Origin: Thermodesulfobacteriota bacterium | Lineage (GTDB): Bacteria > Desulfobacterota > WTBG01 > CAIYCZ01 > CAIRTM01 | Length of the DNA stretch: 34,297 nt | Direction of reading: 5' to 3' | NCBI GenBank assembly: GCA_028282925.1 | Contig: JANQGV010000037.1 | Location: forward strand, 1-34,297 | In this document: piece after piece, positions 1,817 through 18,952 of the stretch | Numbering within the stretch: position 1 is the stretch's first letter | Layout: each line of letters starts with the position of its first letter | The notes under the pieces: generated by a model | Database searches by the model: none | Seen by the model: the letters and a program-made list of their open reading frames with translations, nothing else | Told to the model about the DNA's origin: nothing | Translations under genes and position numbers: made by a program

Positions 1817-2728
1817 TTACTGTAATCCATTTACCCACTCGGTTGCTACATCAACGATCCATTGTGAAATTCGCTTATCCGGTAAAATTCCCCGTTTAGC
1901 AAAATGAATATTCTTTCCGGCAAATAAATCTTTGGTTGCGGTTTTTTTCCCCATCATAAACGAAACAGAATGAGTTGCCATTTTCTCAACACCCATTGAA
2001 AGGTATAGTCCAACAACAATCGTTTTCTCTTTTTCTTCAGTTGCTTTCAAGATTGCCGGAACACCTTCAGTTGCATACGATTGACCAACTTCCACAAAAG
2101 CATAATCAAAATATGTAATTCCAGTTTCAGCACACACGTGATTTCCAATTTTTCTGCACAGAGAATTCCAAATCGGCTCAAAATCTTCAGCACCATGGGC
2201 AAGAAGAACAATGCCTTCAGAATCCGGGGTTGTTGATAATTCTTCAACTCTATCCAGCATGGATTTTTTCAGGATATCGCTATTGGCCAATGTCGGGCCG
2301 ACAGTTATTTTCATTTCTGTATTCGCAATTTCTATTCCTTCGCTTTTAAGTTCATGTAAAATATCTTTATCGCTATAGGTTCCTAAAATAGCCGGGATGT
2401 CAAATAAAGAATGTCCGGATGTGGAAATCAAGAGCGGTATTGCATAAACCCTGTTAATGCCCCGGCTCTCAAAATCTTTCATTACCGTATTGATTGAGGG
2501 CTCATTAAATTCCATCAAAGCAACGCGAATTGCACTGAATTGCTGATTTTCCTTTTGGGTCATGATCCCCTGAACTTCTTTTTCAAGTTTTAGAACCGGT
2601 TGGTTCCATTGGGGCATGGGTGAGCCATGAGCAATAACAATCAAACCATATTTTTCCTGAGCGTGCACAGCAGTAGATACTAAAAAAAACGAAACTGCCA
2701 TGAGTAACATCTTTTGTACCCTTTTCAT
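1817..2728 (-). CDS. Exported CbiX/CbiK-like sirohydrochlorin chelatase family protein
   Basis: A 303-residue protein with an N-terminal signal peptide (about residues 1-23, ending in VHAQ). It has two similar halves, each opening with the family's His motif: IVIAHGSPMPQW (about 30) and IVLLAHGAEDFEPIW (about 173). CbiX/CbiK enzymes insert Co2+ or Fe2+ into sirohydrochlorin. A periplasmic form (CbiK-P) is known in Desulfovibrio, and this protein is probably exported likewise. It follows the zinc-ribbon gene by 3 nt with GGAGG 10 nt before the ATG, so the two are co-transcribed behind the Moco-type riboswitch. Export argues against ordinary cobalamin synthesis and for handling of a tetrapyrrole or metal outside the cytoplasm, fitting the neighbouring TonB operon. 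The exact metal and substrate are unknown. Confidence 0.82.
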   Translation of the reverse strand: MKRVQKMLLMAVSFFLVSTAVHAQEKYGLIVIAHGSPMPQWNQPVLKLEKEVQGIMTQKENQQFSAIRVALMEFNEPSINTVMKDFESRGINRVYAIPLLISTSGHSLFDIPAILGTYSDKDILHELKSEGIEIANTEMKITVGPTLANSDILKKSMLDRVEELSTTPDSEGIVLLAHGAEDFEPIWNSLCRKIGNHVCAETGITYFDYAFVEVGQSYATEGVPAILKATEEKEKTIVVGLYLSMGVEKMATHSVSFMMGKKTATKDLFAGKNIHFAKRGILPDKRISQWIVDVATEWVNGLQ

Positions 2729-2935: not shown

Positions 2936-2949
2936 TACTTTTCCTTATG

Positions 2950-2984
2950 AAAAAAAACCGGTATCGTAGTTAAACGCATACCGG
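2950..2984 (-). terminator. Intrinsic terminator of the riboswitch leader
   Basis: On the minus strand CCGGUAU (2978-2984) pairs with AUACCGG (2958-2964), followed by eight U residues. It lies between the aptamer and the zinc-ribbon start codon, so it is probably the expression platform. Confidence 0.85.
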
Positions 2985-2989
2985 CTTCT

Positions 2990-3089
2990 GTTTCCCTATC
3001 CAAACATGGGAGGCAGGAGCTTTTCAGCTCCTTCCCTTTCGGCCGTTTTTCTTAACGGTTACAGCGTTAGAGCCACGGCTTTGGGAAAC
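2990..3089 (-). promoter_or_regulatory. Moco (molybdenum/tungsten cofactor) riboswitch-like leader
   Basis: Read on the minus strand the leader is closed by GUUUCCC/GGGAAAC and contains GGCUCUAACGCUGUAACCG, a CCGUU/AACGG hairpin, a long AGGAGCU-GAAA-AGCUCCU hairpin with a GNRA loop, and GCCUCCCAUGUUUGGAUAGG. I compare this with the E. coli moaA leader as I remember it. The blocks GGGUCAACUGAUACGG and GCCUCCCGUAUCUGGAAAGG there correspond in order and position to those here. No cobalamin-riboswitch B12 box is visible. A covariance-model search against the Rfam Moco family would decide it. With a terminator directly after, it would be an off switch. Confidence 0.68.
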
Positions 3090-3103
3090 ATGCTTTATTA
3101 CAC

Positions 3104-3132
3104 AATTTAGGCCATCCTAAATTAATTGTCAA
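3104..3132 (-). promoter_or_regulatory. Promoter of zinc-ribbon/chelatase operon with DtxR-type box
   Basis: On the minus strand TTGACA (3127-3132) and TAAATT (3104-3109) are 17 bases apart, giving a start just before the Moco-type leader. The palindrome TTTAGG-CCAT-CCTAAA (3106-3121) fills most of the spacer and reaches into the -10. It contains TTAG-N6-CTAA, the pattern also found at 16335-16348 and 18935-18948. Confidence 0.65.
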
Positions 3133-3230: not shown

Positions 3231-4007
3231 TTAAGAGCTGTGTGCTTTGCGTTTGGGCAACATTTTGATGAAGTAACCCATCGGGCACACTAGCATGCAG
3301 TACGATCGTCCTCCCAACAGCGGTATTCCGATGACAAAATAGAAGAACTCGGCTGTAAAAAAATAGGAAAGCTTCTGCGCCGTGCGTATGGGGTCGGTAT
3401 AGTCCGGTCTGAAGAGAATAAATGCAAGTGCGGCCGTCATCAGCGCAAAATAAAGGGGCGGTATGATGCGGGTGGCTTTGCCGGAACGAACGGGTTTTCC
3501 GGGAAACAACCTGCCATAGGTTTCCGAAAAAAAAGCTCCATGGGGGCACAGGTAGCCGCAAAAGGCGCGGATCCCCCAGCGATACGTCATCAGGGGTACG
3601 GCAACCAGCCCGACAGCAAGGCTAATCACAAGCGCGGCCCGGGGGGTTGCGGGATCGAAGCATTGCAGCGAATGGGGCCAGGGGTACAGAAGGCAGGTCC
3701 AGCTCCAATCGCCGAGCAGCATGGGCAGCACCAGAATAACAGTGAAATGGGCTGCGGCCAGGCACAGGAGCCGTGCCCGCCGGGCAGGGTACCGAATAAC
3801 AGCATACACAATAAGACCGGCCATCACCAGTTCGATCAGAAGCAGGCAGGTCCAGAAAAATGCATAGGTACTCTCCGGGGGCTTGTGACCCCCGGACGGG
3901 CCGAACTCAAAAAGGATTTTTACGCATTCCGTTGTAAAGGTTACAAAAAAAAGAAACCAGAGCAGAAAGCGGGCTGTTTGTTTGACCTTCATTGCAGTAC
4001 GAAGCAC
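3231..4007 (-). CDS. NapH-like polytopic membrane Fe-S protein
   Basis: A 258-residue membrane protein with about five to six hydrophobic helices. It has two cysteine motifs of the NapH/NosR/CcoG type, FCGYLCPHGAF (about 148) and YCMLVCPMGYF (about 236), each C-x3-C-P on a loop near a helix end. The 2[4Fe-4S] ferredoxin-like tail usual in NapH is absent. Family knowledge suggests membrane electron transfer between quinol and a partner. As the last gene of the TonB operon, 42 bp after the receptor, it could supply electrons to reduce an imported metal complex; that is inference. The listed start is GTG; an ATG five codons in (3992) is an alternative, and neither has a strong ribosome binding site. 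Confidence 0.75.
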   Translation of the reverse strand: MLRTAMKVKQTARFLLWFLFFVTFTTECVKILFEFGPSGGHKPPESTYAFFWTCLLLIELVMAGLIVYAVIRYPARRARLLCLAAAHFTVILVLPMLLGDWSWTCLLYPWPHSLQCFDPATPRAALVISLAVGLVAVPLMTYRWGIRAFCGYLCPHGAFFSETYGRLFPGKPVRSGKATRIIPPLYFALMTAALAFILFRPDYTDPIRTAQKLSYFFTAEFFYFVIGIPLLGGRSYCMLVCPMGYFIKMLPKRKAHSS

Positions 4008-4049
4008 CTTGTTTTTTGTTTCTCCCGTACCGTACGGTGCGGCTGTCGC

Positions 4050-6098
4050 CTAAAACCGGTATTCAACCTCCATCCAGTATGACCGCTCAGGGCCTATGTC
4101 GGCGTTGTGCTGGACATATTCCTTATCCGTGAGGTTGGTCAACACGCCCTTAATGCTCAGATGATCCAGCAGTTCCAGCCGCACCGACAGATCAAGAACA
4201 GTGTACGAGGGAAGCTCTGTCGGCTGGCCGCTCATACGGTCCTTATAGAACAGTGAGTCGGTAAAGCGTGCATCAAGCGAAGTCGTTAAACGAATGCTCG
4301 CAGTAGGGTGACAGGTTGCCCGCAGGCCGGCATTGGCCCGGTGCATCGGTAGATCCCCCAGGCGGCCGTCGTCTTTATCCACCGCATGGGTATAGGTATA
4401 ATTCAGATACCCGCTCAGCCAGGACAGGATCTCGCCTTCGAGACCGACCTCGAATCCGTCGGTATCGACTTCACTGAGGTTTTTATATTGCATTTTGCCG
4501 CCGCCCATAACCGGATAGATCAGGTCGTCTGCCGATGTATAAAACGCGGTGAAGTGAAAGCGCATCCAGTCGGTCAGGTTAATGGCGATACCGAGATCAT
4601 AGGAGGTGATGGTTTCGGGGTCAAGGTCGGCGTTTGCCAGAAAAGGGATGCCGGGAATCATTTCCCACGCCGGCATGTGCAGCTCGCTCAAATTGGGTGC
4701 CCGGAACGAACGACCCACCGACCCCCGAATGCTGATGCGGTCGTTAAGCGTATACAGCAGCCCAAGCTTGGGCGAAAAAGCTTCTTCACAACGGGAGTTG
4801 ATGTCGTATCGCACACCCATTGTGACGGTCAAGCGGTTGAACAGTTCTGATTCATTCTGCAGATATATGGCCTGCTGATTCAGGCTTTTTTCCATCACCT
4901 CACCAATGGTGCGCCGGCTCCGGTCCCGGTTTTTCCAATAGCCCTGTTTGTATTTGTAGTCGATTCCGGCCGTCAGGAAATGGGATTTTCCCCACGGCAT
5001 CGCCGCCTGGACCTCCATGCCCGTGTCCCGGCCCCAGTAAAACTGGGTGCCCCATTCATACATAAAAACAGGTAGCTGTGTTTCACGGATATTTTCTCTT
5101 TTGCTGCGGTTTCCGTCGTAATTGGTATATAAACGCATCTTGAAATCGACGCGGTCCCACATACGCTTTCGGAGCTCGCCGCTCACAAACCAGAAACTGC
5201 GGTCGGCGTATTTGTCCCGGGTTTCGGGAAGACGTTTTGTTTGATCCAGGCCGACATAGGCATCCGTGTAACTGCCGGTAAGCGACACGGAAGTGTCCGG
5301 GCTGAAATCATAATCAAGCCGCCCGAAAAGACGGGCGTCGCGATACCCGGCGTTTTTGGTTGCCTTGAATTCTTTATCAAAGCGCCCGCTGAGCATATTA
5401 TAGGAATAGTCGACGTTTTTACCGTTTCTGAACTGGTTGTCGATGCTGCGGCGGGAGGCATTCAGGGCGACATGCAAGGGGCCCCGGCGGCCGACAAGGC
5501 GCACACCGGCCTCGCGAAAATCGTCGCTGCCGGCCTTAATAAAAGGAGTAACGTCGACGCCGTCGGTCAGGCGTTTTTTAGTGATCACGTTGATGACACC
5601 GCCCATGGCGTTGCTGCCGTACAGGGAAGAAAAGGCGCCTTTGACGACTTCGATCCGTTCGATAGCGGAAAGCTGCACCTGGTTGGCCTCAATGAAACCG
5701 GTCAGGGGCGAGTTGATGGGCACGTCGTCCACCATGAAAAGAACGCGGTTGCGGCCCACCACCCCGCGGATATTGTAACTGGAGGGCATGCGCATGCCAA
5801 GATCGGTCTGTTTGTCTACATCAATACCGCCCAGCTTGCGCAGCAGATCGTCGACATTATTCGCGGCCGCATTCTCGATTTCCAGGCTGGAAACAACACT
5901 TACATCGGCAAAAATCTCGTCGATCGCCTTTTCCGAACGGGTTGCGCTAATGACGACCCTGTTCATTCTGACATCATCCTGATTGCGGGCAGCGGTATTG
6001 TGGCTATCGGGGTTCTCATCGGCGGCAATAACCGGTTGTGCAGCAAAACAAACCGTCGACAACAGCATAAAAAACACTACACATACAAATTTTTTCAT
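4050..6098 (-). CDS. TonB-dependent outer-membrane receptor (BtuB/CirA-like)
   Basis: A 682-residue protein from the start chosen here (AAAGGA about 8 nt before ATG at 6098, followed by signal peptide MKKFVCVVFFMLLS...). The ORF-track start 30 codons earlier would place the signal peptide internally. After the signal comes a TonB-box-like segment (MNRVVISATRSEK), a plug domain (SSYNIRGV, NRVLFMVDDVPI, IERIEVVKGAFSSLYGSNAM) and a long beta-barrel ending in Phe (NLTDKEYVQHN...EVEYRF). It imports a ligand across the outer membrane using energy from TonB-ExbBD. It lies downstream of tonB and the TPR gene. The plug resembles BtuB/CirA/heme-siderophore receptors, but the ligand cannot be read from sequence. 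A 100-bp gap separates it from the TPR gene. Confidence 0.95.
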   Translation of the reverse strand: MKKFVCVVFFMLLSTVCFAAQPVIAADENPDSHNTAARNQDDVRMNRVVISATRSEKAIDEIFADVSVVSSLEIENAAANNVDDLLRKLGGIDVDKQTDLGMRMPSSYNIRGVVGRNRVLFMVDDVPINSPLTGFIEANQVQLSAIERIEVVKGAFSSLYGSNAMGGVINVITKKRLTDGVDVTPFIKAGSDDFREAGVRLVGRRGPLHVALNASRRSIDNQFRNGKNVDYSYNMLSGRFDKEFKATKNAGYRDARLFGRLDYDFSPDTSVSLTGSYTDAYVGLDQTKRLPETRDKYADRSFWFVSGELRKRMWDRVDFKMRLYTNYDGNRSKRENIRETQLPVFMYEWGTQFYWGRDTGMEVQAAMPWGKSHFLTAGIDYKYKQGYWKNRDRSRRTIGEVMEKSLNQQAIYLQNESELFNRLTVTMGVRYDINSRCEEAFSPKLGLLYTLNDRISIRGSVGRSFRAPNLSELHMPAWEMIPGIPFLANADLDPETITSYDLGIAINLTDWMRFHFTAFYTSADDLIYPVMGGGKMQYKNLSEVDTDGFEVGLEGEILSWLSGYLNYTYTHAVDKDDGRLGDLPMHRANAGLRATCHPTASIRLTTSLDARFTDSLFYKDRMSGQPTELPSYTVLDLSVRLELLDHLSIKGVLTNLTDKEYVQHNADIGPERSYWMEVEYRF

Positions 6099-6197
6099 TT
6101 GCCTATCCTTTCCATTAATATTGCGGCAGTTATCATATAGTACGTTGTGCAATGTATCCATCCCCCGGTGCTGAACTACATTGTTCACTGTATCCTG

Positions 6198-7475
6198 CTA
6201 AGGAGATGTATCGGGTTTAAAGCCCGGCGGTGGCTCATTACGGGCCGCATCGAGGCTTTTAAGAATCGAGAGATACGGCAATGCCTGGTCGCGCACTTTC
6301 GGTTCGCGGGCGGCCAGGGTAAGTTCGGTTCTGGCCGTTTCCCAGCGCGCCAGGTCCCAGGCAATGCTGCCCCGCAGGAGATGAAGCCTTCCGTTTTTGC
6401 CGGTGCCGCAACGACCGGGGTTGAGAGCGGCAAGAGCGTCGTCAGAGCGGCCGCTGCTGTGGAGCAAACGTGCCCTGGGCAGGCAGGCATTCTCAGTCGC
6501 GGATATTTCGTCGGCCTTATCAAGAAAGGCAATCGCCCGGTCGTAGCGGTGCGCACGGGTATAGGCATCGGAAATCCGTCGGTACACGTCTGCGGTGGTA
6601 GCATTGTCGCATGACGCTTCAAGCACCCTGGCGGCCTGCAGTGGCGCCCCGAGATACAAATATATCTCGGCGAGGTTTTTTGCATCGCGCGGGTTTGTCT
6701 TCGGGCTCAGCGCAACAGCCACGGCCAGGGCCGCAGCAGCCTGGGGGTACTGTTCGCGCTCGAAACGCAGGTGTGCAAGCAATTTCCAGTACTCGGGGTT
6801 GCCCGGTGTTGTATTTAAATACCGTTCAAGGGTTTGTTGGGCCAGCACGATATCATTGAGGGCGATACAGGTGTGCACAAGCAGCTTGAGCCACTCGGGG
6901 TCTGTTTCGGTATACCGCTCAAGAAGCTCCTGCAAAACACGACGGGCCGTCCTGAAGTCTTCGGCCTGATAATAGGAAATGGCAGCCTGGTGGAGCAGTT
7001 TTCTGCATTCGTCGGCCTGTGAAGGCTGGGACTGTCGGTTCCGGCCGGAGGCGGACTGCTTGATGGAGCAGGCCTTTTCAAAAAAATCTCCGGCGCCGCC
7101 GTACGCTTCGGTTTCATATGAAGCTACCGCGCAGTTCAGGCAGAGCGAATAATTATCGGGCTCAATAATCAACCCTTTGCGGTAGATCTGCAGCGCTTCG
7201 GAGGTCTTCTCCTGCTGATACAGAACGTTTCCCAGCAACAGGCAGACCGTGGCAGAGACGGCATCCGGCTGATGTTCAATGTGCGATTTTAAGATTTTTT
7301 CTGCGGCGGCATACTGTTTCTGCCGGATATGGGTATGGGCCTTCAGGAGAACGGCGCGCGTACGTGGACTGTCAACGTCGGCCTGCGCTCCGGCTGCGGC
7401 AAGGATGAGCGCCGTAAGGACGGCAGGGGCAATCTTGTGAAAAACGCGTAATGAAAGCAGTTTACCGGTGTTCAT
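6198..7475 (-). CDS. TPR-repeat exported protein of TonB2/TtpC-type system
   Basis: A 425-residue protein with an N-terminal signal or anchor (hydrophobic about 13-32, ending AGAQA) and multiple tetratricopeptide repeats across most of its length (YAAAEKILKSHIEHQPD, TSEALQIYRKGLIIEPDN, YPQAAAALAVAVALSP, YDRAIAFLDKADE). TPR proteins are the usual last member of DUF3450-TtpC-ExbB-ExbD-TonB clusters in marine and other Gram-negative bacteria and are thought to aid assembly or coupling at the envelope. Its ATG overlaps the tonB stop by 4 nt, so translation is coupled. Confidence 0.9.
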   Translation of the reverse strand: MNTGKLLSLRVFHKIAPAVLTALILAAAGAQADVDSPRTRAVLLKAHTHIRQKQYAAAEKILKSHIEHQPDAVSATVCLLLGNVLYQQEKTSEALQIYRKGLIIEPDNYSLCLNCAVASYETEAYGGAGDFFEKACSIKQSASGRNRQSQPSQADECRKLLHQAAISYYQAEDFRTARRVLQELLERYTETDPEWLKLLVHTCIALNDIVLAQQTLERYLNTTPGNPEYWKLLAHLRFEREQYPQAAAALAVAVALSPKTNPRDAKNLAEIYLYLGAPLQAARVLEASCDNATTADVYRRISDAYTRAHRYDRAIAFLDKADEISATENACLPRARLLHSSGRSDDALAALNPGRCGTGKNGRLHLLRGSIAWDLARWETARTELTLAAREPKVRDQALPYLSILKSLDAARNEPPPGFKPDTSP

Positions 7476-8128
7476 GTCAAATCAAACTCCAGGGGTAGAA
7501 CCACCCAGGTGGAAACCGCTTCTCCCTCAAGTATGCCGGGCTTGAAGCGCCATTTTTTAACGGCCTGCAGCACCGCCTGGTCGAATACGCCGGGAGGTAT
7601 GGACTCCTGTATCGAGATATCCTGCACGCGTCCTTCGGTGTTCACCAGAAAGCGTACCGTGACTTTTCCTGTAATTTGTCTGCGGCGGGCGCTAAACGGG
7701 TACACCGGGTCCACCTTCCTGAATAGGCGGGGTGCAACATCCACGTCGCCGATCTCATAGCCGTGAAAGGCACCGTCGAGTGCCGACAGTGCCAATCCGG
7801 TTGTGATCCGGGAAGACATGCCCAGCTCAAGGGGCGGCGGGGCGATGTTTAAACGGGGACGCGGAGTGTTTTTCATAGTTCGGCTCGCGGGAGCTTTTTT
7901 CAAAGCGGCCGGGGGTTTTTCTTTGGGCTGCATTTGCCGGGGCGGTTCCTCCGGCGGCAACGGCGGGGCGGTTCGGCTGATCAGGACCGGCATTTCATAC
8001 GACTCCGGCTGCTCGGGAAGGTCGCTGCGCAGGAGAAGGGGGATGCCCAGGAAAAGAAGCATGTTCACAAGAACCGTTCCCAGGGCGATTGTGCTGCCGC
8101 CCGCCAGTTTTCTGCGCTGACGTTTCAT
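7472..8128 (-). CDS. tonB: TonB energy-transducing protein
   Basis: A 218-residue protein with an N-terminal membrane anchor (about 14-34), a proline-rich periplasmic spacer (PPLPPEEPPRQMQPKEKPP...), and a C-terminal TonB domain (VDPVYPFSARRRQITGKVTV...QAVKKWRFKPG) ending in FDLT. It carries proton-motive energy from ExbB-ExbD to outer-membrane receptors such as the one encoded downstream. ATGA-type overlaps with exbD and the TPR gene indicate one transcript. The short linker and domain order fit TonB2-type proteins of TtpC systems. Confidence 0.95.
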   Translation of the reverse strand: MKRQRRKLAGGSTIALGTVLVNMLLFLGIPLLLRSDLPEQPESYEMPVLISRTAPPLPPEEPPRQMQPKEKPPAALKKAPASRTMKNTPRPRLNIAPPPLELGMSSRITTGLALSALDGAFHGYEIGDVDVAPRLFRKVDPVYPFSARRRQITGKVTVRFLVNTEGRVQDISIQESIPPGVFDQAVLQAVKKWRFKPGILEGEAVSTWVVLPLEFDLT

Positions 8129-8541
8129 TCCGGCTTCCTCGCGGCGACACTGATGTTTTGCACACCGGCCATGCGGCAGGCGTCGAGCACCATGACGACG
8201 ATACCGTTGTGACTGAGACGGTCGGCGGCGATGACGACCGACCCCTCAGGTATTTCAGCCAGAAAGCGTTCCATGCGTGCCCGGACTGAGCGGACGTCGA
8301 CGGGCCGCCCCTCGATATACACCAGATCCTCGGCGGTAATTGCAATAACCATATTGGTCTTTTCCTTGGAAACGGCTGTTTTGGCCACAGGCCTTTTTAC
8401 ATCGACTCCCGCTTCCTTTACAAAGCTGGTTGTGGCAATAAAAAAGATAAGCAGGATGAAAATCATGTCCATCAGCGGGGCCATGTTCAGCTCGGTTGTT
8501 TGTCTTCTCTGTCTCAGGCGTCCGTAGCGAATGCTGTTCAT
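8125..8541 (-). CDS. exbD: ExbD biopolymer transport protein
   Basis: A 138-residue single-pass protein. The helix begins LNMAPLMDMIFILLIFF, with the conserved membrane aspartate at residue 25, the proton-coupled position in ExbD/TolR/MotB. A periplasmic domain follows (SHNGIVVMVLDACRMAGVQNISVAARKPE). It forms the proton channel with ExbB to energise TonB. Overlaps tonB by 4 nt and follows exbB by 19 nt. Confidence 0.95.
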   Translation of the reverse strand: MNSIRYGRLRQRRQTTELNMAPLMDMIFILLIFFIATTSFVKEAGVDVKRPVAKTAVSKEKTNMVIAITAEDLVYIEGRPVDVRSVRARMERFLAEIPEGSVVIAADRLSHNGIVVMVLDACRMAGVQNISVAARKPE

Positions 8542-8560
8542 AGTGATATCTTTCCTGCCT

Positions 8561-9181
8561 TCAGGCCCCTATCTCCGAGTGGGTGTGGGGGTCAAGCTCC
8601 CGGAACAGTTCAACGCAGAAATGTTTCATCCGGTTTTCAAGCTGCCCGGACTTCTGTAGCAGAAAGCTTCCCAGCAGCAGGCCCGGGACGGAAACAATCA
8701 AACCCGCCTGTGTGGTGATCAGGGCCGCGGAAATACCTGCTGAAAGGGCGCGGGCGTTGCCGGTTCCGAAAAAGGCGATGGCATCAAAGGTTGTTATCAT
8801 GCCGCCGATGGTACCCAGCAGACCCAGCAGCGGCGCTATTGCAGCCAGAACCAGAATCGTTCCGATGTGGCGTTCACTCATGCTGATGCGGCGCGCCAGA
8901 ACACTGTCGAGGAGCGCCCGGTCGAGGTCACGGATACGGGAGCGTGACTGCATGAAAACCGAAACAATTTCACGCTGCCAGTCTGCGGCTTTGATGTCTG
9001 TTCCGTGCGTCTGCAGCTCATCTACATTAATGTGACGCTCGGCTTTTAAACATCCATCGAATTCCATGTATTTTTTCATAATCAGTATCCACATCCATAC
9101 CGAGATGAGGAGGAGCGGAAGCATGACCAACCCGCCGCCGGAAAAATAGCCTCCGATGTTTTCATACAGGTTGCTGAGCAT
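8561..9181 (-). CDS. exbB: ExbB/TolQ/MotA-type proton channel subunit
   Basis: A 206-residue protein with three predicted helices: about 17-36, about 110-135 (LGLLGTIGGMITTFDAIAFFGTG) and about 145-172 (GISAALITTQAGLIVSVPGLLLGSF). These contain the conserved LLGT and T-T residues that line the ExbB proton path. It partners ExbD. Its start codon overlaps the stop of the long TtpC-like gene by one base. This is the second ExbB-type protein of the operon, as expected for a TonB2-type system. Confidence 0.95.
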   Translation of the reverse strand: MLSNLYENIGGYFSGGGLVMLPLLLISVWMWILIMKKYMEFDGCLKAERHINVDELQTHGTDIKAADWQREIVSVFMQSRSRIRDLDRALLDSVLARRISMSERHIGTILVLAAIAPLLGLLGTIGGMITTFDAIAFFGTGNARALSAGISAALITTQAGLIVSVPGLLLGSFLLQKSGQLENRMKHFCVELFRELDPHTHSEIGA

Positions 9182-10629
9182 CAGGCTGGCTTTCCGTTAA
9201 CCCCGTTATTGGTTACCAGGGTAACGGCGAATGCCGTTCCCTTTTCTTCCATATCGCCTATGATCGCATCAACCCGCCGCTCAAGGAAATGGTGCATGAA
9301 CATAATGGGAATGGCCACCGCCAGCCCGAGCTGGGTCGTAACCAGGGCTTCTGAAATGCCCCCCGACATCATGCGGGGATCACCTGTACCGAAGAGGGTT
9401 ATGACATGGAAGGTGTTGATCATGCCGGTCACGGTTCCCAGCAGGCCCAGCAGAGGTGCTATGGCAGCCAGCACGCCCAGGGTCGGGATAAAGCGCTCAA
9501 GTCGCGGCAGTTCCTTCAGCAGGGCTTCCTGCAGGGCATCCTCGATAACGTCGCGGGTGGTTCCCAGGTGTTGCAGGGCGCTGAGCAGGACCCGGCAGAC
9601 AGGCACCTGCACTTGCTGCTCGCAAAAACTGCGACACTCCTGCCATTTTTGTCCGGCACCCATTTTGGTAACTTTTTCGATGATTGAGTCGGTATTGGAG
9701 CGGATTCGTCTCAGGAAAAGGAGCCGCTCGACAGCCAGTCCCAGGCCGACAATCCCGACCAGCAGGATCGGCCAGACCAGAATGCCTCCCGATTGCAGCC
9801 GCTCGGCAATGCTCCTGCGGCCGGCAAAACGCTGAAAAACCGCACCGCGTGACAGATCAAGAAAGAGATGGTCCGATTGCCCGTCCATGTAGCGGTCGAT
9901 GTTTTTTGCCACTCCCCGGGAAAGCTTTCCCTTGACGGCCAGCAGCCGGCCGCCGGGGGTCGGGCGCAGGTAGCCGGTTGCGCCGTCGGCCGTCCGGTAG
10001 CATGCCGTAAGCATGCCGATCCGCATTATTTCGCCGGAAACAACCTGTCCTTCGGAGTTGATGAACTCGCCTTTGCGTCTGGTGGGGATGCCTGAAAGGC
10101 CCATGGTTCTCATCAGTACGTCCACCAGCGAGCGGATTCCGGCCATGCCCGGAAAACGTTCGGCCCGGGCCAGGGTAGCTATTGTGTCCCGCACCGACGG
10201 CATTTCCGCCAGCATGAATCCTTCACTGAGGAGGCTTTCGAGTTCCTTGGCAGCCGTTTTTACCGTGCCTTCAATGATTTTGATTTCCTCACGCTGCTCT
10301 TCGAGCTCTTTGGACAGGGTGCGCTCCTGCTCCATAAGCTGGTCGAACTGTTTTTTTAAATCGGCGAAGGTACGCTCGCGCCGGTCGGATTCGGCTTTGA
10401 GTTCCGACAGTTCTTGCTGAAGGCGGAGGCGCTCCTGGATGATTATTTCTTCCGTCCTTTGAGCATCTTTAATCGTTTGCTGCTTCTGCTGCTGCAGCTT
10501 CGTCGCAGCCCGGGTCCAGGCATTGTCGGAAGCAGGCGGCGCATCCTGCGCTGAGATACTTACTGGTAAAAGCATCCAGAGCAGCAGGAAACACAACATG
10601 ATAGTGCAGCGAAATAGTCTTTTTTTCAT
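9181..10629 (-). CDS. TtpC-like long ExbB-family protein
   Basis: A 482-residue protein with a signal peptide (about 1-28, SISAQ), a periplasmic region starting with a long coiled coil (about 40-135, rich in Q/E/K/R: KLQQQKQQTIKDAQRTEE...), then a C-terminal ExbB/MotA domain. The domain has a helix near 285-308 (GILVWPILLVGIVGLGLAVE) and LLGLLGTVTGMINTFHVITLFGTG near 400. This architecture is that of TtpC, which in Vibrio is an extra component needed by the TonB2 system. ATGA overlaps on both sides tie it to the DUF3450 gene and exbB. Confidence 0.9.
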   Translation of the reverse strand: MKKRLFRCTIMLCFLLLWMLLPVSISAQDAPPASDNAWTRAATKLQQQKQQTIKDAQRTEEIIIQERLRLQQELSELKAESDRRERTFADLKKQFDQLMEQERTLSKELEEQREEIKIIEGTVKTAAKELESLLSEGFMLAEMPSVRDTIATLARAERFPGMAGIRSLVDVLMRTMGLSGIPTRRKGEFINSEGQVVSGEIMRIGMLTACYRTADGATGYLRPTPGGRLLAVKGKLSRGVAKNIDRYMDGQSDHLFLDLSRGAVFQRFAGRRSIAERLQSGGILVWPILLVGIVGLGLAVERLLFLRRIRSNTDSIIEKVTKMGAGQKWQECRSFCEQQVQVPVCRVLLSALQHLGTTRDVIEDALQEALLKELPRLERFIPTLGVLAAIAPLLGLLGTVTGMINTFHVITLFGTGDPRMMSGGISEALVTTQLGLAVAIPIMFMHHFLERRVDAIIGDMEEKGTAFAVTLVTNNGVNGKPA

Positions 10630-11405
10630 TGTTTATACGTTCCTATGGGTATATCCAGCAATTCTATCGCCCGTTTGCGCTGCGCCATGTCCATTGCCCT
10701 GCCGATTGCGGCACCGTAGCCCGAAGCGATTTTTTGCCAGGTGTTTTCACGTGCATTCCAGTAGCCCGATTCTTTTGCATCGAGGGTTTGATAAAAAAGC
10801 GCCGTCCGGCCCAGACGCAACAGCTTTACCCGGACAGGCGAGCCGTTAAACTCCAGTGCGGTTTCCGTAACATCGATGGTCCGGCCGTACGAAGCCTCAA
10901 CCTGCAGGGCTTCAACCACTCTTCTCAATTTTTCGCTCAAACCGATATGATAGTCATTCAGCGAGTCATGCAGAAATTTCAGCCGGCGCTGACGCTCTTC
11001 GGGCAAAAACGGGACATCTTTGCGGACCTGCTCTTCAAGTTCGCGCAGGCTTTGGTTGAGGAAGGGTTCAAGCTCCATGCGGAGCCGGCGCATTTCTTCT
11101 CTTTTACGCTCCAGTTCACGTATGGCGGTTTGCTGCTTTTCAATATAGCTGGTGTATTTTTCCTGTTGAAAGGTGAGCCAGGCGTTTTTTGTTTTCAGGT
11201 TGCGGATTTCTTCCTGCAGGCCGTGGCGCTGATCATCCCAGGCGGCGACCCTGTCCTGGGCCTTTTTTTCGATAGCTATTGCTTTGCCTGCCGTTGCGTC
11301 GACAAGCTTCGGCTGCAGGTCCAGGCATACCGCTGGATGCGCGGTGAGCACCGCCAGCAGAACGGCTGCAACAAGTATGTTTTTTTGAGTGATCATACGA
11401 TTCAT
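10626..11405 (-). CDS. DUF3450 family periplasmic coiled-coil protein
   Basis: A 259-residue protein from the start chosen here (ATG at 11403-11405 with GGAAAA just before; the ORF-track start lies 19 codons upstream and would bury the signal peptide). The signal peptide (about 1-25, ending AVC) is followed by a long helical, charged region (WDDQRHGLQEEIRNLKTKNA...EKQQTAIRELERKREEMRR) and a C-terminal globular part (RLGRTALFYQTLDAKESGYW). DUF3450 proteins regularly precede TtpC in TonB2-type clusters, but their molecular role is not known. It overlaps ttpC by 4 nt. Confidence 0.9.
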   Translation of the reverse strand: MNRMITQKNILVAAVLLAVLTAHPAVCLDLQPKLVDATAGKAIAIEKKAQDRVAAWDDQRHGLQEEIRNLKTKNAWLTFQQEKYTSYIEKQQTAIRELERKREEMRRLRMELEPFLNQSLRELEEQVRKDVPFLPEERQRRLKFLHDSLNDYHIGLSEKLRRVVEALQVEASYGRTIDVTETALEFNGSPVRVKLLRLGRTALFYQTLDAKESGYWNARENTWQKIASGYGAAIGRAMDMAQRKRAIELLDIPIGTYKQ

Positions 11406-11519
11406 TTTTCCGTTTCGATGTCTGTTATAGATAAAAAACTGATTTTTAAGCCCGGTCGGCACAAGCCCTTAAGGTGCGCATGCACATATGCACCGGTGCG
11501 GTTTCAAAAAATGCAACTG

Positions 11520-12653
11520 CTATAAGGGCATCCGCAGCTTTTTGAGGAGCTCAATTTTTTCGGATTTGGTCATTTTCCTGTTTTTTATTTCACTCCTGGC
11601 CGTATGGAGTTTTTTCGTCGCTGTATAAAGTCCTGTTTCCGGGGGCGGCACCACACGCTTGCCCCTGCCGTAGGGGTCGTGACCGGGGCTGTTGTCAAAT
11701 TCCTCGGAGATGAGGTAAATATTGGTTGTGACGTTTTTAGAACCGCCGTGATAGCCGCTGTGGGCCCCGTTGATATAGTCTGCAATGGTTTTTTCATAGT
11801 CAGTTATACCGGGGTTGTAATAGGATATCAGCCAGCAGAATCCCCGGAACTCGAAGGTGGGTATTTCATCGGCCTGACCATCGAAATAGGTCTGGGTTCC
11901 GTCGGTGCTGTACAGCGACATATAGGTAAGGGTTGACATTGGATTTTCAATCATGTTTTGAAAGCTGTGGGTTTCGTCAAACCCGTAAACACCATCATCA
12001 TTGGCGGTATCTTCAGAATTGACGGGACGTCCCGTATAGAGCTCCAGGGTGGCGAATCTGGTTTTGTCCCACAGGTCTTTCCGGCGGTACAGCTCCTTGC
12101 GCAGCCTGAAAATATCCGCGGGAAAATCGGCCTGGGGGTCGTCATAGATGGCCTGTACCTGCTCTTCGATATAGGGTATTTTATCCGCCTTGGGCAGAAG
12201 CGTGAAGCCTTTCGGGGTCGAGTTGAGGTGAAACCGGCTGTCGCCACGATTGTTCCATTTCGCACCATAGGTGGTGAGCATGGGATGGTGATGGCCGCCG
12301 TTGGGGATGCCGAGTTCCTCGACCTCGCCGTCGAAGTAGGCCAGGAGTTTGTCATAGTACCAGCATTTTTCTTCAATCCACCAGTCATGAAACTCATCGT
12401 CAAATTCATTGATCGGGTATGCCCACCACCAGCCGTCATACTTTGCCAGCACATAGCCGTCGTCCACCCATTCGGTACGCAGGTTTTTTTGGGTAAAATA
12501 CCGGTTTCCCGTTGTGAGGTCCGTCTGCCAGTTTGCCCGGCAACCGCTCTTCCGGGTGGTTTCTGCATGAGCCCATTTTGTGTTCAGGGGAAATCCAAGG
12601 CCGATTCCCGCAGTCGACAGTCCTGCAAGTTTTAGAAATGATCTTCTCTTCAT
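11520..12653 (-). CDS. Tat-exported aromatic-rich protein of unknown function
   Basis: A 377-residue protein starting at the ATG at 12651-12653, which has AAGGAGC 6 nt upstream; the ORF-track start six codons earlier lacks this. The N-terminus MKRRSFLKLAGLSTAGIGLG is a clear twin-arginine signal, so it is exported folded, often with a cofactor. The mature part is unusually rich in Trp, Tyr and His, with segments DGWWWAYPINEFDDEFHDWW, EEKCWYYDKL and GGHHHP, and three scattered Cys. The C-terminus is basic and helical (TKSEKIELLKKLRMPL). I do not recognise the family. Its place between the ABC pair and the DUF3450-TtpC-TonB genes suggests a periplasmic binding, redox or ligand-processing role in the same pathway. 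Confidence 0.85.
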   Translation of the reverse strand: MKRRSFLKLAGLSTAGIGLGFPLNTKWAHAETTRKSGCRANWQTDLTTGNRYFTQKNLRTEWVDDGYVLAKYDGWWWAYPINEFDDEFHDWWIEEKCWYYDKLLAYFDGEVEELGIPNGGHHHPMLTTYGAKWNNRGDSRFHLNSTPKGFTLLPKADKIPYIEEQVQAIYDDPQADFPADIFRLRKELYRRKDLWDKTRFATLELYTGRPVNSEDTANDDGVYGFDETHSFQNMIENPMSTLTYMSLYSTDGTQTYFDGQADEIPTFEFRGFCWLISYYNPGITDYEKTIADYINGAHSGYHGGSKNVTTNIYLISEEFDNSPGHDPYGRGKRVVPPPETGLYTATKKLHTARSEIKNRKMTKSEKIELLKKLRMPL

Positions 12654-12779
12654 ACTTTTGCTCCTTATCATGTGTACGTCAAATGGTTATCTGTTTCGGT
12701 CCTACAGGCCTATCTATAGCAAACGTCATTATCCGGTTGCAGGGAGGGCGGTCCACTGTAGCATTACACGGCACCCACG

Positions 12780-14534
12780 TCACTGTAGCGAGGCGTCGGC
12801 CCGCCCATGCTTGAGCAGTTGCCGGAATGTTCCGTTACGGTTCATTAACTCTCCATATGTTCCCTGTTCGACGATGGTGCCCTCATCAAGCACCATAATG
12901 GTATCGGCGCCCACGATGGTAGACGGCCGGTGAGAAACCGTTATAATCGTCTTGTCCTTAAACTCGTGAGCTATTGTTTTCAAAATGCTGCCCTCGTTCA
13001 GGGTGTCCAGATTGCTTGTCGCTTCGTCAAGGAGGATAACGGGGGCATCGTGAATGAGGGCCCGCGCTATGGCGATTCTCTGCCGTTCACCGGCCGAAAG
13101 CCTGCAACCGGATTCACCGACCCTGGTTTGATAGCCGTTGGGCAGGGTCATGATGAAATCGTGAATATTGGCGCGTCTGGATGCTGTTTCCACCTCCTCG
13201 GTGGTTGCGGCCGGATTGCCTGTTTTAATGTTGGCTTCGATAGTGTCATTGAAAAGGTATGTATCCTGAGAGACCATGGTCATGTTCGAACGCAGATACG
13301 AAAGGGGGGGTTCCTTGATGTTCTCCCCGTTCAAGAAGATCTCTCCGTGGTCGACATCCCAGAAACGCAGCAACAGCCTCAGGACGGTACTTTTGCCGGA
13401 CCCGCTCGGGCCGACTATGGCCGTTTTGGTGTTCGGCTTGATAGCGATGTCCAGATCACGGCAGACAGACTCATCCTTTCCGGGATACGAGAACAGGACA
13501 TTGTTATAGTTGATATCAGGCGTATTGTGACGCACCCGGGAGTGTGCTCCCGGGTGCTCGATGACGAGGGGTTTTTCGTCCAGCAATGAGAATATCCTTT
13601 CAGACGCCGCAAAGGTATGCATCAAGTCGTTGGTCAATGCGCTTAATGCAACAAGAGGACCGAAGGAGCTTGCCGCGGTAACGGTTACGATAATAACACC
13701 GTCAATGCCGATATCTCCCAGGTGCAGGCGATAGAGGGCGCTAAAAAGAACGGCAGCGGTCCCGCCAAGGATACAGGATTCGGAAAGTGCCATGACAAAC
13801 CCCTCATACCTCCGCAGTTTGCGTGAAGCATCGGTCAGTTCCTGTCCTTTGCGGCGAATCTCTTTTTGCCGGTCTTCGGCGCGGCCGAACATAATAAGCT
13901 CGCGCAGCCCCTGCAGGCTGTCGAGAAAATGGGTATTGATGGCGGAAAACCCCGCATGATAGTTTCTGCCGGTAGCCCGGACATGCCGCGCGATGTATAA
14001 GGGTATCAGGGTGCACAAATAGAATACAAGCAGAATCAAAGAGAAGCCGTACCAGAAGGTGCCGGCAAAGATGAGTACGGTAAGGGGTACCACAATGCCG
14101 ATGGATACCGGCGCAATGGTGTGGGCGAAAAAAACCTCAACATACTCGACATCCCCCATAATGGTCGTCACAATGTCGCCGGACCGTTTATCGATCAGCT
14201 TGGCGGGCGCAAGCCGGCGCAGAGCCCCGAAAATTTTTTCCCGCATGAGCGACAGCAGGCGAAAGGCGACATCATGACCCATGAGTTGTTCAAAATAGCC
14301 CAGGGGGCCACGCACTAGAGCGGCTGCAAGGGTTAAACCGACAAGTGCTTTAAAAGGCAACGCCAGTTGTATTCCCAGCGCACTCGCCACTACCATGGAA
14401 CCGAATACCATGATAAGAACGGCCGAGAGATTACCGAGAATGCCAAGAAAAATACAGGCGAGCATGGTCGGTGCAAGAGGAGTCACCATGTGTAAAAGCC
14501 GCAGCATTATTTTAACGGCCGGTTGTTTATGCAT
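12780..14534 (-). CDS. CydC-like ABC half-transporter (permease-ATPase)
   Basis: A 584-residue fused membrane-ATPase protein from the ATG at 14532-14534 (AAAGGAGA upstream). The N-terminal exporter-type membrane domain (about 1-310) includes YFEQLMGHDVAFRLLSLMRE and LIDKRSGDIVTTIMGDVEYVE, strongly reminiscent of CydC. The ATPase has Walker A VGPSGSGKST, signature LSAGERQRIAIARAL (Ala in place of the usual LSGGQ second Gly) and Walker B VILLDEATSNLD. It overlaps the stop of its partner by 8 nt, so the two form a heterodimer. CydDC exports thiols or handles heme; related pairs (YbtPQ, IrtAB) import siderophores. Context favours a role with the TonB uptake genes. Confidence 0.9.
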   Translation of the reverse strand: MHKQPAVKIMLRLLHMVTPLAPTMLACIFLGILGNLSAVLIMVFGSMVVASALGIQLALPFKALVGLTLAAALVRGPLGYFEQLMGHDVAFRLLSLMREKIFGALRRLAPAKLIDKRSGDIVTTIMGDVEYVEVFFAHTIAPVSIGIVVPLTVLIFAGTFWYGFSLILLVFYLCTLIPLYIARHVRATGRNYHAGFSAINTHFLDSLQGLRELIMFGRAEDRQKEIRRKGQELTDASRKLRRYEGFVMALSESCILGGTAAVLFSALYRLHLGDIGIDGVIIVTVTAASSFGPLVALSALTNDLMHTFAASERIFSLLDEKPLVIEHPGAHSRVRHNTPDINYNNVLFSYPGKDESVCRDLDIAIKPNTKTAIVGPSGSGKSTVLRLLLRFWDVDHGEIFLNGENIKEPPLSYLRSNMTMVSQDTYLFNDTIEANIKTGNPAATTEEVETASRRANIHDFIMTLPNGYQTRVGESGCRLSAGERQRIAIARALIHDAPVILLDEATSNLDTLNEGSILKTIAHEFKDKTIITVSHRPSTIVGADTIMVLDEGTIVEQGTYGELMNRNGTFRQLLKHGRADASLQ

Positions 14535-16296
14535 AGACGGTCTCCTTTTGATAGCGTTCAAGCTCTGCCTGCTGTTTAACCAGCTTCGCATATGTTCCGT
14601 TGCTTTGCGTCAGTTCGGCATGCCTGCCCGATTCCACGACGTTGCCGTCTTTCAGGACGTAAATCGTATCGGCGTTTTCAACGGTAGCCAGGCGGTGTGA
14701 TATGATCAGGGTTGTTTTGTGCTTAGCAAGCTCTGCAATAGCACCCCATATTTTGTTTTCGTTTTCGATATCGACGTTGGATGTGGCTTCGTCGAAGATG
14801 TACAAGTCGGCATCATGCAGCAGGGCCCGGGCAATGGCCAGGCGCTGTCGCTGCCCGCCGGAAAGTTTGTTCCCCTGCTCCCCGACGTCGGTGTCCAGGC
14901 CGTGGGGCAGCGATTGCACAAAGTCGTCGAATCCCGCTGCCCTACAGGCTTCCAGCATGTGCGCTTCGGTCGCCCCGGTGTTGCCCAGCCGCAGGTTGTC
15001 GGCGATGGTGCCCGCAAAAATGTAGCTGCTGTGCGGAACGATGGAAACCAGCTTGCGCAGATGCTCCAAAGGTATCTCTTTTATATCGATACCGTTCAGC
15101 ATGATACTGCCCTGATCCGGATCAAAAAACCGTGCTATCAAACCGGCAACGGTACTTTTGCCTGAGCCTGACTCTCCCACTAGGGCTACGGTGTGCCCGG
15201 CCTCGACAGTAAGGTTGACGTTTTGCAGAATGGGTCGTGTGCCGTCGTATGAAAACCCGACATTTTCAAAGGTAATGGATACATGGCGATCCTGCCTGTT
15301 TTGAAGCGCTGCCGGCACTTCCCGGGGAAAGCAGGTCAGGTCCGGCTTTTGCTCAAGCAATGCAAAAATTTTTTCGGATGCGGCGATTCCATTGACGCCC
15401 GCATGATAGTAGGAGCCGAGGGTCCGCAGGGGTAGAAAAAAATCTGCTGCAAGAAAGAGGATAATAATGGCCTGGGAAAGACTGATTGTGCCCTTGGCCA
15501 GGGCAAACCCGGCCAGCACTATACCGATGGCGGCACAACCATAGGCAATGACGTCCATAATAACTATGGACGTTAACTGCATTCTCAGCAGACGCATGGT
15601 TGCATTGCGAAAAGCCCATGATTTTTCTTTCAAGGTTTCCTCACGGTCTTCATCGCGTACGAAAATTTTCAGGGTCGTGAGACCCTGCAGACTGTCAAGG
15701 AAAAAGCCGCCAAGTGCTTCGTAGTTGTCCCAGTATCCGCCCATAACACGCTTGGCCCATTTCATTACCGCGATGATGGAAGCCGGTATCAGGGGGACGG
15801 CCAGGAGCAGAATAAGGGCCACGCCGAGATGAATGGTGGAAAAGCAGATGAAGAGTATCAGCGGGGCTATCAAGCTGTAAAACATCTGCGGCAGATACCG
15901 TCCGAAATAAATCTGCAAAGCCTCAACGCCGTCTACCGCAGCGGTAACGATATGAGCCGTCTGGGTTTTTTCGAGGTACCCCATTTCCAGTTCGAGCAGC
16001 TTGGCATAGATCATATCCCTTAGATGCCGGCGGACATGCGTGGCGCTGTTAAAGGACGCTTCGTTTGTCAGCAGAGTAAGGATGAACTTGAAAATGATAA
16101 TGCATGCTATCACCGCGGCAGTCAGAATAACGTCCTGCGGGCCCCAGACCCCGGTATACAGCTTTTCAATCAACCTGGCGATACAAACAACCTGCACGAT
16201 GTTTGCGAACAATTTCAGGATTTTATAGACAACGGTACGTGTTATCCAGGAGCGCGACTCTTGTGCGAGAGAGAACAGTTTTTTGTTGACGATCAT
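14527..16296 (-). CDS. CydD-like ABC half-transporter (permease-ATPase)
   Basis: A 589-residue fused permease-ATPase. The membrane domain (about 1-320, six helices) carries CydD-like features such as GRYLPQMFYSLIAPLILF and GYLEKTQTAHIVTAAVDGVE. The ATPase has Walker A VGESGSGKST, signature LSGGQRQRLAIARAL, Walker B LYIFDEATSNVD and the switch His in IISHRLAT. It is the first gene of the long operon, 24 bp after the predicted transcription start at about 16321, and its partner overlaps it. GAGG lies 13 nt before the ATG, a loose ribosome binding site. Substrate and direction of transport cannot be determined from sequence. Confidence 0.9.
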   Translation of the reverse strand: MIVNKKLFSLAQESRSWITRTVVYKILKLFANIVQVVCIARLIEKLYTGVWGPQDVILTAAVIACIIIFKFILTLLTNEASFNSATHVRRHLRDMIYAKLLELEMGYLEKTQTAHIVTAAVDGVEALQIYFGRYLPQMFYSLIAPLILFICFSTIHLGVALILLLAVPLIPASIIAVMKWAKRVMGGYWDNYEALGGFFLDSLQGLTTLKIFVRDEDREETLKEKSWAFRNATMRLLRMQLTSIVIMDVIAYGCAAIGIVLAGFALAKGTISLSQAIIILFLAADFFLPLRTLGSYYHAGVNGIAASEKIFALLEQKPDLTCFPREVPAALQNRQDRHVSITFENVGFSYDGTRPILQNVNLTVEAGHTVALVGESGSGKSTVAGLIARFFDPDQGSIMLNGIDIKEIPLEHLRKLVSIVPHSSYIFAGTIADNLRLGNTGATEAHMLEACRAAGFDDFVQSLPHGLDTDVGEQGNKLSGGQRQRLAIARALLHDADLYIFDEATSNVDIENENKIWGAIAELAKHKTTLIISHRLATVENADTIYVLKDGNVVESGRHAELTQSNGTYAKLVKQQAELERYQKETVYA

Positions 16297-16327
16297 AATA
16301 TCCAGTTTCCTCGCGGAAGTTAGAGTG

Positions 16328-16356
16328 TTTACAGTTAGCCCGCCCTAATTTGCCAA
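16328..16356 (-). promoter_or_regulatory. Promoter of ABC/TonB operon with DtxR-type box in the spacer
   Basis: On the minus strand TTGGCA (16351-16356) and TGTAAA (16328-16333) are separated by exactly 17 bases. The spacer holds TTAGGGCGGGCTAA (16335-16348), a TTAG-N6-CTAA palindrome like the one in the zinc-ribbon/chelatase promoter. Binding of a repressor here would block polymerase. Confidence 0.65.
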
Positions 16357-16442: not shown

Positions 16443-16634
16443 ATGGCTTACAAAATTAGTGAACAATGTAACCTGTGTGATGCATGCCGCCTGCAGTGCC
16501 CGCGTAACGCAATCTCCATAGCCGAAAGCGGTACGATCTACACAATCGACGAAGATCTCTGCAATGATTGTGCAAACCTGTCCGCGGTTCGTTGTGTTCC
16601 CCATTGCCCTGTTGATGCTATTTCACAAGCGTGA
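16443..16634 (+). CDS. Small 2[4Fe-4S] ferredoxin
   Basis: A 63-residue protein with a first cluster motif CNLCDACRLQCP (C-x2-C-x2-C-x3-C-P) and a second CNDCANLSAVRCVPHCP (C-x2-C-x7-C-x3-C-P). The widened second motif is the YfhL/FdxN-like ferredoxin pattern. AAAGGAG lies 9 nt before the ATG. It is transcribed divergently from the ABC/TonB operon. It carries low-potential electrons in the cytoplasm; the partner is unknown. Confidence 0.95.
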   Translation: MAYKISEQCNLCDACRLQCPRNAISIAESGTIYTIDEDLCNDCANLSAVRCVPHCPVDAISQA

Positions 16635-17399: not shown

Positions 17400-18101
17400 T
17401 TACTCTTTAAACAGCTCACGAATCCTAACGACATTTACGCCGATCTTGCGGGCGATTGACTGTGAAACGGCAACGGTCTTCCCCTCTACGTTAATGCTTA
17501 TCGGCCCGTCAAAGGGGGCGACCTCCAGCACCGTAATTTCTGCACCTGGAACAATGCCCATATCCTTCAAATAGTGTAGCTGATCCCGGTCACGGTCACT
17601 GACCTGTTTTACAATGACCTTTTTGCCGGCAAGAACATCAGCCAGCAAATGATATTCGAAAACTTCAATAGTCCCTTCCTCGGTGGGAATAGGATGCCCA
17701 TGGGGGTCTACCGTGGGGTATCCCAGCATTGAATCGATGGCATGCATAAAGCGTTCGGATACAACATGCTCCAGCCGACAGGCCTCATCATTTACCTCAT
17801 CAATGGGATATTTAAGAACGTTTACCAAAAAGGTCTCAATCAACCGGTGTGTGCGCAATACCCGTAGCGCTATAAGGCGCCCCTCCGGGGTGAGCATCAC
17901 TCCATGTCGCCATTGGTGGTCCAGGTAGCCATGCTCCGCCATTCGGACAATCTTCTCCGAGACCGTGGGAAGACTTACTCCCAGGCTTTCGGCAATGTCC
18001 TTGGTGCGGGCATAGGACCGCTCATGGGTCAGACGGTAAATAGCAACAAGAAAATTTTCCGTGGATTCGGTTAATACATTTGTTTGTTTTTTAAACAGCA
18101 T
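17400..18101 (-). CDS. DtxR/IdeR-family metal-dependent transcriptional regulator
   Basis: A 233-residue protein with an N-terminal winged helix (about 1-75: TKDIAESLGVSLPTVSEKI), a metal-binding dimerisation domain (about 76-145) and a C-terminal SH3/FeoA-like domain (about 155-228, LHYLKDMGIVPGAEITVLEV). Metal ligands visible are Cys108, Glu111 and His112 in ACRLEHVVS, with His85 and Glu89 in THRLIE. The Cys is the DtxR/IdeR iron-type signature; manganese-type MntR has Glu there. The position of DtxR Met10 appears to be Asn16. It lies 3 nt after the PAS gene, so they share a transcript. Candidate operators (TTAG-N6-CTAA) lie at 3107, 16335 and 18935. Confidence 0.93.
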   Translation of the reverse strand: MLFKKQTNVLTESTENFLVAIYRLTHERSYARTKDIAESLGVSLPTVSEKIVRMAEHGYLDHQWRHGVMLTPEGRLIALRVLRTHRLIETFLVNVLKYPIDEVNDEACRLEHVVSERFMHAIDSMLGYPTVDPHGHPIPTEEGTIEVFEYHLLADVLAGKKVIVKQVSDRDRDQLHYLKDMGIVPGAEITVLEVAPFDGPISINVEGKTVAVSQSIARKIGVNVVRIRELFKE

Positions 18102-18780: not shown

Positions 18781-18799
18781 TTAGTTTTGGCGAGCCTAA
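18781..18799. promoter_or_regulatory. IdeR/DtxR-like 19-bp box
   Basis: TTAGTTTTGGCGAGCCTAA matches the IdeR consensus TTAGGTTAGGCTAACCTAA at 15 of 19 positions. It lies about 60 bp into the predicted leader of the PAS-dtxR transcript, which fits autoregulation. Confidence 0.5.
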
Positions 18800-18930: not shown

Positions 18931-18952
18931 AAAATTAGTTTATCCTAATTTT
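18931..18952. promoter_or_regulatory. Perfect AAAATTAG-N6-CTAATTTT palindrome (DtxR-type operator candidate)
   Basis: An 8-bp perfect inverted repeat with a 6-nt spacer. It contains TTAGTTTATCCTAA, the same TTAG-N6-CTAA pattern as in the chelatase and ABC/TonB promoters. On the minus strand TTCAAA and TATATT flank it with 18-bp spacing, so it may again sit inside a promoter. Confidence 0.6.

Follow-up and report, generated by a model that had tools for sequence, protein, structure and literature searches.

What is taken up, and under which control, by a row of eleven genes in which a TonB energiser and an outer-membrane receptor are joined to an ABC transporter resembling the heme transporter CydDC? 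The window (the whole stretch of DNA that was analysed, 34,297 nt from a Thermodesulfobacteriota genome) was checked for ORFs and its proteins were searched for domains. The source genome (5.6 Mb, 324 contigs, the window being on contig 281; 96% complete) and 16 others made up the class-level comparison of 17 genomes. Eleven ORFs lie on the minus strand from 16296 to 3231, in the order ABC-A, ABC-B, Tat protein, DUF3450, TtpC, ExbB, ExbD, TonB, TPR, receptor and Fer4_5 (Table 1); all the same-strand genes reported by the first-pass annotation were present over that span, and their domain assignments were verified.

Overlaps of 4 nt were measured between TPR and TonB, TonB and ExbD, and TtpC and DUF3450, and of 1 nt between ExbB and TtpC; ABC-A and ABC-B overlap by 8 nt when ABC-B starts at Met20, or by 65 nt if the mechanical start is taken. 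Gaps separate ABC-B from the Tat protein (108 nt), the Tat protein from DUF3450 (57-114 nt) and TPR from the receptor (9-99 nt, depending on the start). No terminator-like hairpin was detected on the operon strand in the ABC-B/Tat and Tat/DUF3450 gaps, and the only predicted iron operator of the row precedes ABC-A, with no further site in the row, including before the TonB genes. Because of these two features, a single transcript of the eleven genes is the simplest reading. Upstream, the operon is bounded by a divergent ferredoxin gene, and the iron operator lies in the intergenic region that the two share; downstream, it is bounded by a Moco riboswitch with a terminator (2940-3098).

Table 1. 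Features of the operon and its surroundings, in window coordinates.
Feature	Position	Strand	Evidence or remark
ABC-A, CydD-like half-transporter, first operon gene	14527-16296	-	ABC_membrane + ABC_tran
ABC-B, CydC-like half-transporter	12780-14591	-	ABC_membrane + ABC_tran; likely start 14534
Tat-signal exported protein, unnamed family	11520-12671	-	twin-arginine signal RRSFLKL
TtpB (DUF3450)	10626-11462	-	PF11932 264.8 bits; likely start near 11405
TtpC, DUF3450-like N-part + MotA/ExbB domain	9181-10629	-	PF01618 113.4 bits; PF11932 22.5 bits (below cut-off)
ExbB	8561-9181	-	PF01618 (MotA_ExbB) 77.3 bits
ExbD	8125-8541	-	PF02472 95.1 bits
TonB	7472-8128	-	PF03544 (TonB_C) 80.8 bits; TIGR01352 over cut-off
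TtpD, 425-aa TPR protein	6198-7475	-	matches to many TPR families
TonB-dependent outer-membrane receptor	4050-6188	-	PF00593 (TonB_dep_Rec barrel) 168.5 bits, PF07715 (Plug) 82.6 bits; likely start near 6098
Membrane protein, two CX3CP Fe-S motifs (Fer4_5, NapH-like), last gene	3231-4007	-	PF12801, two stretches
Predicted DtxR-type operator, TTAG-N6-CTAA	16335-16348		39-52 nt upstream of ABC-A
Predicted DtxR-type operator	18935-18948		upstream of PAS/DtxR-FeoA genes
Predicted DtxR-type operator	3107-3120		on -10-like element of the separate downstream unit
Candidate regulator, DtxR-family repressor fused to FeoA domain	17400-18101	-	PF01325, PF02742, PF04023
Ferredoxin gene, 2[4Fe-4S]	16443-16634	+	upstream limit of operon
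Promoter-like site	3132-3104	-	front of downstream unit
Moco/W riboswitch RF01055	2977-3098	-	42.4 bits, gathering 36
Terminator hairpin, strong	2940-3000		z -5.1
CbiX-like gene, signal peptide, chelatase homolog	1817-2728	-	preceded by riboswitch and 67-aa Zn-ribbon-like ORF

The middle of the row is a TtpC-type (TonB2) energiser, with ttpB, ttpC, exbB, exbD, tonB and ttpD standing together. This six-gene core is already known, and its content and order are those of the published Vibrio TonB2 system: in V. vulnificus, TtpB2 is a DUF3450 protein, TtpD2 is a 425-aa TPR protein in the matching position, and siderophore uptake requires all six genes, ttpB2-ttpC2-exbB2-exbD2-tonB2-ttpD2 (PMC6957404). 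The likeness to the TonB2/TonB3 systems of that species extends to iron regulation and, for TonB3, to the inclusion of a receptor gene, but a CydDC-like ABC pair, a Tat protein and an Fe-S membrane protein are not described there (PMC6957404); control there is by Fur, whereas the operon here has a DtxR-type operator. Further copies of the six-gene cassette were found in the source genome (contig C104) and in two relatives (G071, G034), with a partial copy in a third (G388), each followed by a different putative receptor of 930-957 aa, that of C104 being confirmed as a receptor. The earlier proposal of an uptake route leading from the outer to the inner membrane, powered by a TtpC-type energiser, is supported.

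For the control of the row, the dyad TTAG-N6-CTAA (TTAGNNNNNNCTAA) was counted three times in the window, each time in an intergenic position, where 0.26 would be expected (0 of 100 shuffles); by itself this count is weak, because the motif had been noticed before it was counted. An independent check came from a genome-wide scan, which led to a locus on contig C69 where feoA, feoB and dtxR lie together with DUF2325 and NicO-type genes. Six copies fall within about 7 kb there (6229-13270), where 0.12 would be expected (0 of 300 shuffles), and a spacing of six bases is set apart from all the others. Between the feoA site TTAGCCGCCCCTAA and the operon site TTAGCCCGCCCTAA, 12 of 14 bases are identical, and the dyad is missing from most of the other loci scanned in the source genome and its relatives. 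The stricter form TTAGG-N4-CCTAA occurs once in the genome, so beyond its four-base arms the motif is only loosely kept. The canonical 19-bp IdeR/DtxR consensus was rejected in favour of the N6 dyad, since the site before ABC-A agrees at only 13 of 19 positions, a match that chance would produce about 4.5 times per window. No vitamin B12 riboswitch was found.

With one predicted operator common to the operon and to feoAB/dtxR in a single genome, the operon is very probably repressed under iron by a DtxR-type protein, for which the DtxR-FeoA fusion encoded in the window is a candidate; the operator before the first gene is support beyond what the first-pass annotation had. The dyad is also a candidate iron-operator motif for an uncultured deltaproteobacterial class, whose iron regulon might then be read from genomes. 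The C69 locus itself is a candidate iron-regulon core for the class.

The inner-membrane step would fall to the ABC pair. ABC-A scored 463.8 bits against the CydD model TIGR02857 (curated cut-off 435) and ABC-B 315.6 bits against the CydC model TIGR02868, just under its cut-off of 329. The best PDB match of the ABC-A TMD was CydD (97.8 bits, next family 46) and that of the ABC-B TMD was CydC (63 bits), so that the likeness to the heterodimeric CydDC holds subunit by subunit. A YbtPQ-type importer was disfavoured, its chain 6p6i_A matching more weakly in both cases (26.5 against 97.8 bits for ABC-A, 34 against 63 bits for ABC-B). In E. coli CydDC, heme is ligated by H85 of CydC and H312 of CydD (PMC10374445); in our alignments, ABC-B His106 is placed at H85, and ABC-A His298 and Tyr297 are placed at H312 and Y311 of CydD. 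The axial histidine pair was kept in every CydDC-like pair aligned and is missing from other ABC transporters of the source genome. The pair differs from CydDC in that it is about 28% identical, forms a sister branch to CydDC proper in a small tree, has Gln and His aligned in ABC-B with the propionate-holding R81 and R136 of CydC, and lies inside a TonB operon in a genome where cytochrome bd was not detected. Searches for cytochrome bd subunit I (CydA, PF01654) gave no match in the source genome or in the 16 class relatives, while a control search recovered CydA in 10 of 14 known genomes. On the strength of this absence from 17 class genomes, service to cytochrome bd was rejected, and the pair probably has another task.

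The receptor carries both PF07715 and PF00593 above their cut-offs, its signal peptide being a reading of the sequence. NCBIfam does not separate heme from vitamin B12 as the substrate: the heme model TIGR01785 gave 197.3 bits (cut-off 316.85) and the vitamin B12 model TIGR01779 gave 192 bits (cut-off 599.7), about equal and both far below their cut-offs, and siderophore receptor models also gave scores. At the histidine that heme receptors carry between the FRAP and NPNL motifs, the protein reads FRAPNLSELH...NADL, and the position is Tyr in the relative from genome G314. The two closest receptor relatives (about 50% identical), in the source genome (C323) and in G314 (C223), both have chelatase genes of the CobN/ChlH and ChlI/D types as neighbours, and a CobN-like gene stands beside a more distant relative (30%). 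The C323 chelatase comes closest to ChlH, followed by CobN and after that HmuS, a ranking that indicates a tetrapyrrole but not which one. On C323 (12201-20000), the paralogous receptor (50%) stands directly beside the ChlH/CobN-type and ChlI/D-type genes.

A known counterpart is the Bacteroides hmuYRSTUV system, in which a TonB receptor with its own ExbB-type proteins serves heme iron, and the CobN-like HmuS, whose gene lies beside the heme receptor, strips iron from heme (PMC12583661). The operon here differs in its inner-membrane transporter and in having no CobN/ChlH gene inside it, the chelatases of this type being found beside the closest receptor relatives. Because the heme-ligand histidines are kept, cytochrome bd was not detected and the receptor relatives adjoin chelatase genes, a tetrapyrrole appears to be the best-supported cargo, on moderate evidence; the first-pass leaning towards a tetrapyrrole gains from the first and the last of these points.

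Our preferred reading, to which we give about an even chance, is that of an uptake operon under iron repression, whose cargo would most likely be heme or a metallo-tetrapyrrole related to it. At low iron, the DtxR-type repressor would leave the operator before ABC-A and transcription would run from ABC-A to Fer4_5. The cargo would be bound by the outer-membrane receptor, which TonB, powered by ExbB/ExbD and the proton motive force and acting with TtpB, TtpC and TtpD, would open to let it into the periplasm. The CydDC-like pair would then carry the tetrapyrrole over the inner membrane, held between ABC-B His106 and ABC-A His298; the twin-CX3CP protein may supply electrons for iron reduction, and the Tat protein would act in the periplasm. 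Several points count against the model: E. coli CydDC moves heme outwards, into the periplasm (PMC10374445), so that import by the ABC pair would be a reversal; R81 and R136 are replaced; the receptor models are ambiguous; the operon lacks a CobN/ChlH gene; and the full gene set is not conserved.

A narrower proposal, which we put forward only tentatively and rather doubt, is that a CydDC branch standing apart from cytochrome bd has taken over transport across the inner membrane in TonB-dependent uptake of heme (tetrapyrrole), where it replaces the usual binding-protein-dependent importer of the BtuCD/HmuUV type and runs the opposite way to E. coli CydDC. If this were true, an anaerobe would import heme by a CydDC-type pump and not by a binding-protein-dependent importer, a CydDC relative would probably be without a function in cytochrome bd assembly, and the case would speak to the dispute over which substrate CydDC moves and in which direction.

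That ABC importers with an exporter fold can take up siderophores is established for YbtPQ and IrtAB. The operon could accordingly be read as iron-repressed siderophore or metallophore uptake, with the ABC pair as such an importer and the Fe-S protein reducing ferric iron, a possibility that we consider unlikely but worth weighing. It is in keeping with the iron operator, with the scores of the receptor against siderophore models and with the service of Vibrio TonB2 systems in siderophore uptake, but both TMDs score far higher against CydD/CydC than against the YbtPQ chain 6p6i_A, both CydDC heme-ligand histidines are kept, and the receptor relatives adjoin tetrapyrrole chelatases. Among known systems, the FUR-regulated pqqL cluster of Desulfovibrio resembles the row by its description, being an iron-regulated deltaproteobacterial row with an ABC transporter and exbB/exbD/tonB, proposed for siderophore transport; it differs in its first gene, which encodes a peptidase, and in its control by Fur (PMC545781).

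The heme-uptake reading treats the row as one unit, and the first-pass annotation had proposed comparing genomes for conservation of its full gene set. Conservation of this kind was not borne out. The whole operon was not found again in the 17 class genomes, nor in any of 80 receptor relatives in named genomes; as a conserved unit it was rejected for the class, the ABC pair, Tat protein, Ttp/TonB genes, receptor and Fer4_5 protein occurring apart and with other neighbours. G274 alone yielded a close ABC-A relative (42%), and there the pair lies beside a cation-efflux gene. In a wider profile search with ABC-A, the four best further relatives, from other genomes of the phylum, were inspected: one (G098) adjoins cydAB, and no TonB/receptor genes of the window type were detected beside the other three. 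The earlier expectation, that the ABC/Tat genes and the TonB genes would be together in relatives and co-regulated, therefore failed in its first half, while co-regulation is supported by the shared iron operator. Since the blocks occur apart in relatives, the operon combines known blocks in an unusual way and is not a new kind of system; with every block known and the exact assembly found in no relative checked, it is plausibly a new route of heme/iron scavenging.

The same separation of blocks could mean that chance has brought together two transcription units of unrelated function, one for a CydDC-like exporter, which may or may not include the Tat protein, and one for TonB and the receptor. 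The ABC pair standing alone in G274, the separate occurrence of Ttp module, Tat family and Fer4_5 orthologs, and the gaps of about 110 nt flanking the Tat gene would all fit, yet we hold this to be improbable: TonB/receptor genes are usually iron-regulated, the single iron operator of the row precedes ABC-A with none before the TonB genes, and the gaps flanking the Tat gene lack a terminator-like hairpin. Quite improbable is periplasmic heme supply, in which the pair would export cytoplasmic heme for use in c-type cytochromes or other hemoproteins of the periplasm and the receptor would feed the same pool, both being raised at low iron: this would agree with the known direction of CydDC, the kept heme-ligand histidines, a genome with no cytochrome bd to serve and an operon where domain searches found no periplasmic binding protein of BtuF/HmuT type, but iron-starved cells are not expected to spend iron on heme export and the operon is without a cytochrome maturation gene.

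Within the heme-uptake reading, the two least defined steps are those of the Tat-exported and Fer4_5 proteins: the "reduction and processing" of the first-pass annotation was deduced from one Fe-S protein and one Tat protein lacking a known fold, and both roles are possible ones. The Tat protein had no match in Pfam, NCBIfam or PDB, including a profile search of PDB, and its single-sequence structure model reached a pLDDT of 36. Alignment of the family gave conserved motifs around GGHH.P, RGDS.F.LN, ETHTF.N, YHGG and GRG.R. Homologs were found in 10 of 395 phylum genomes, in varied settings, with three copies in the source genome, one of which (C197) follows another receptor gene; the operon would place this unnamed family near iron acquisition. 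A distant copy on C117 (1436-3702) lies behind an Lcl_C-domain gene, and its upstream TTTTGGCGAGGCTAA nearly matches the operator-like TTTTGGCGAGCCTAA at window positions 18781-18799. At locus L031 (5134-10838), tandem copies stand beside a NIR_SIR Fe-S protein and a molybdopterin oxidoreductase. Orthologs of the Fer4_5 protein (56-64% identity) occur elsewhere in the class with other neighbours.

Downstream of the row, the CbiX-like gene was considered as a twelfth operon member and rejected, as a promoter-like site of its own, the Moco riboswitch and a terminator lie upstream of it. The histidines of its HGS and GHSLFDIP motifs align with the active-site histidines of CfbA-type proteins. The predicted promoter of this unit also has a matching iron operator, and joint Moco and iron control of a chelatase-like gene would be an odd arrangement. 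Further along the minus strand, a c-di-GMP-I-GGC riboswitch (RF03167, 1486-1562, 66.3 bits) precedes an ORF at 1033-1386 on the same strand.
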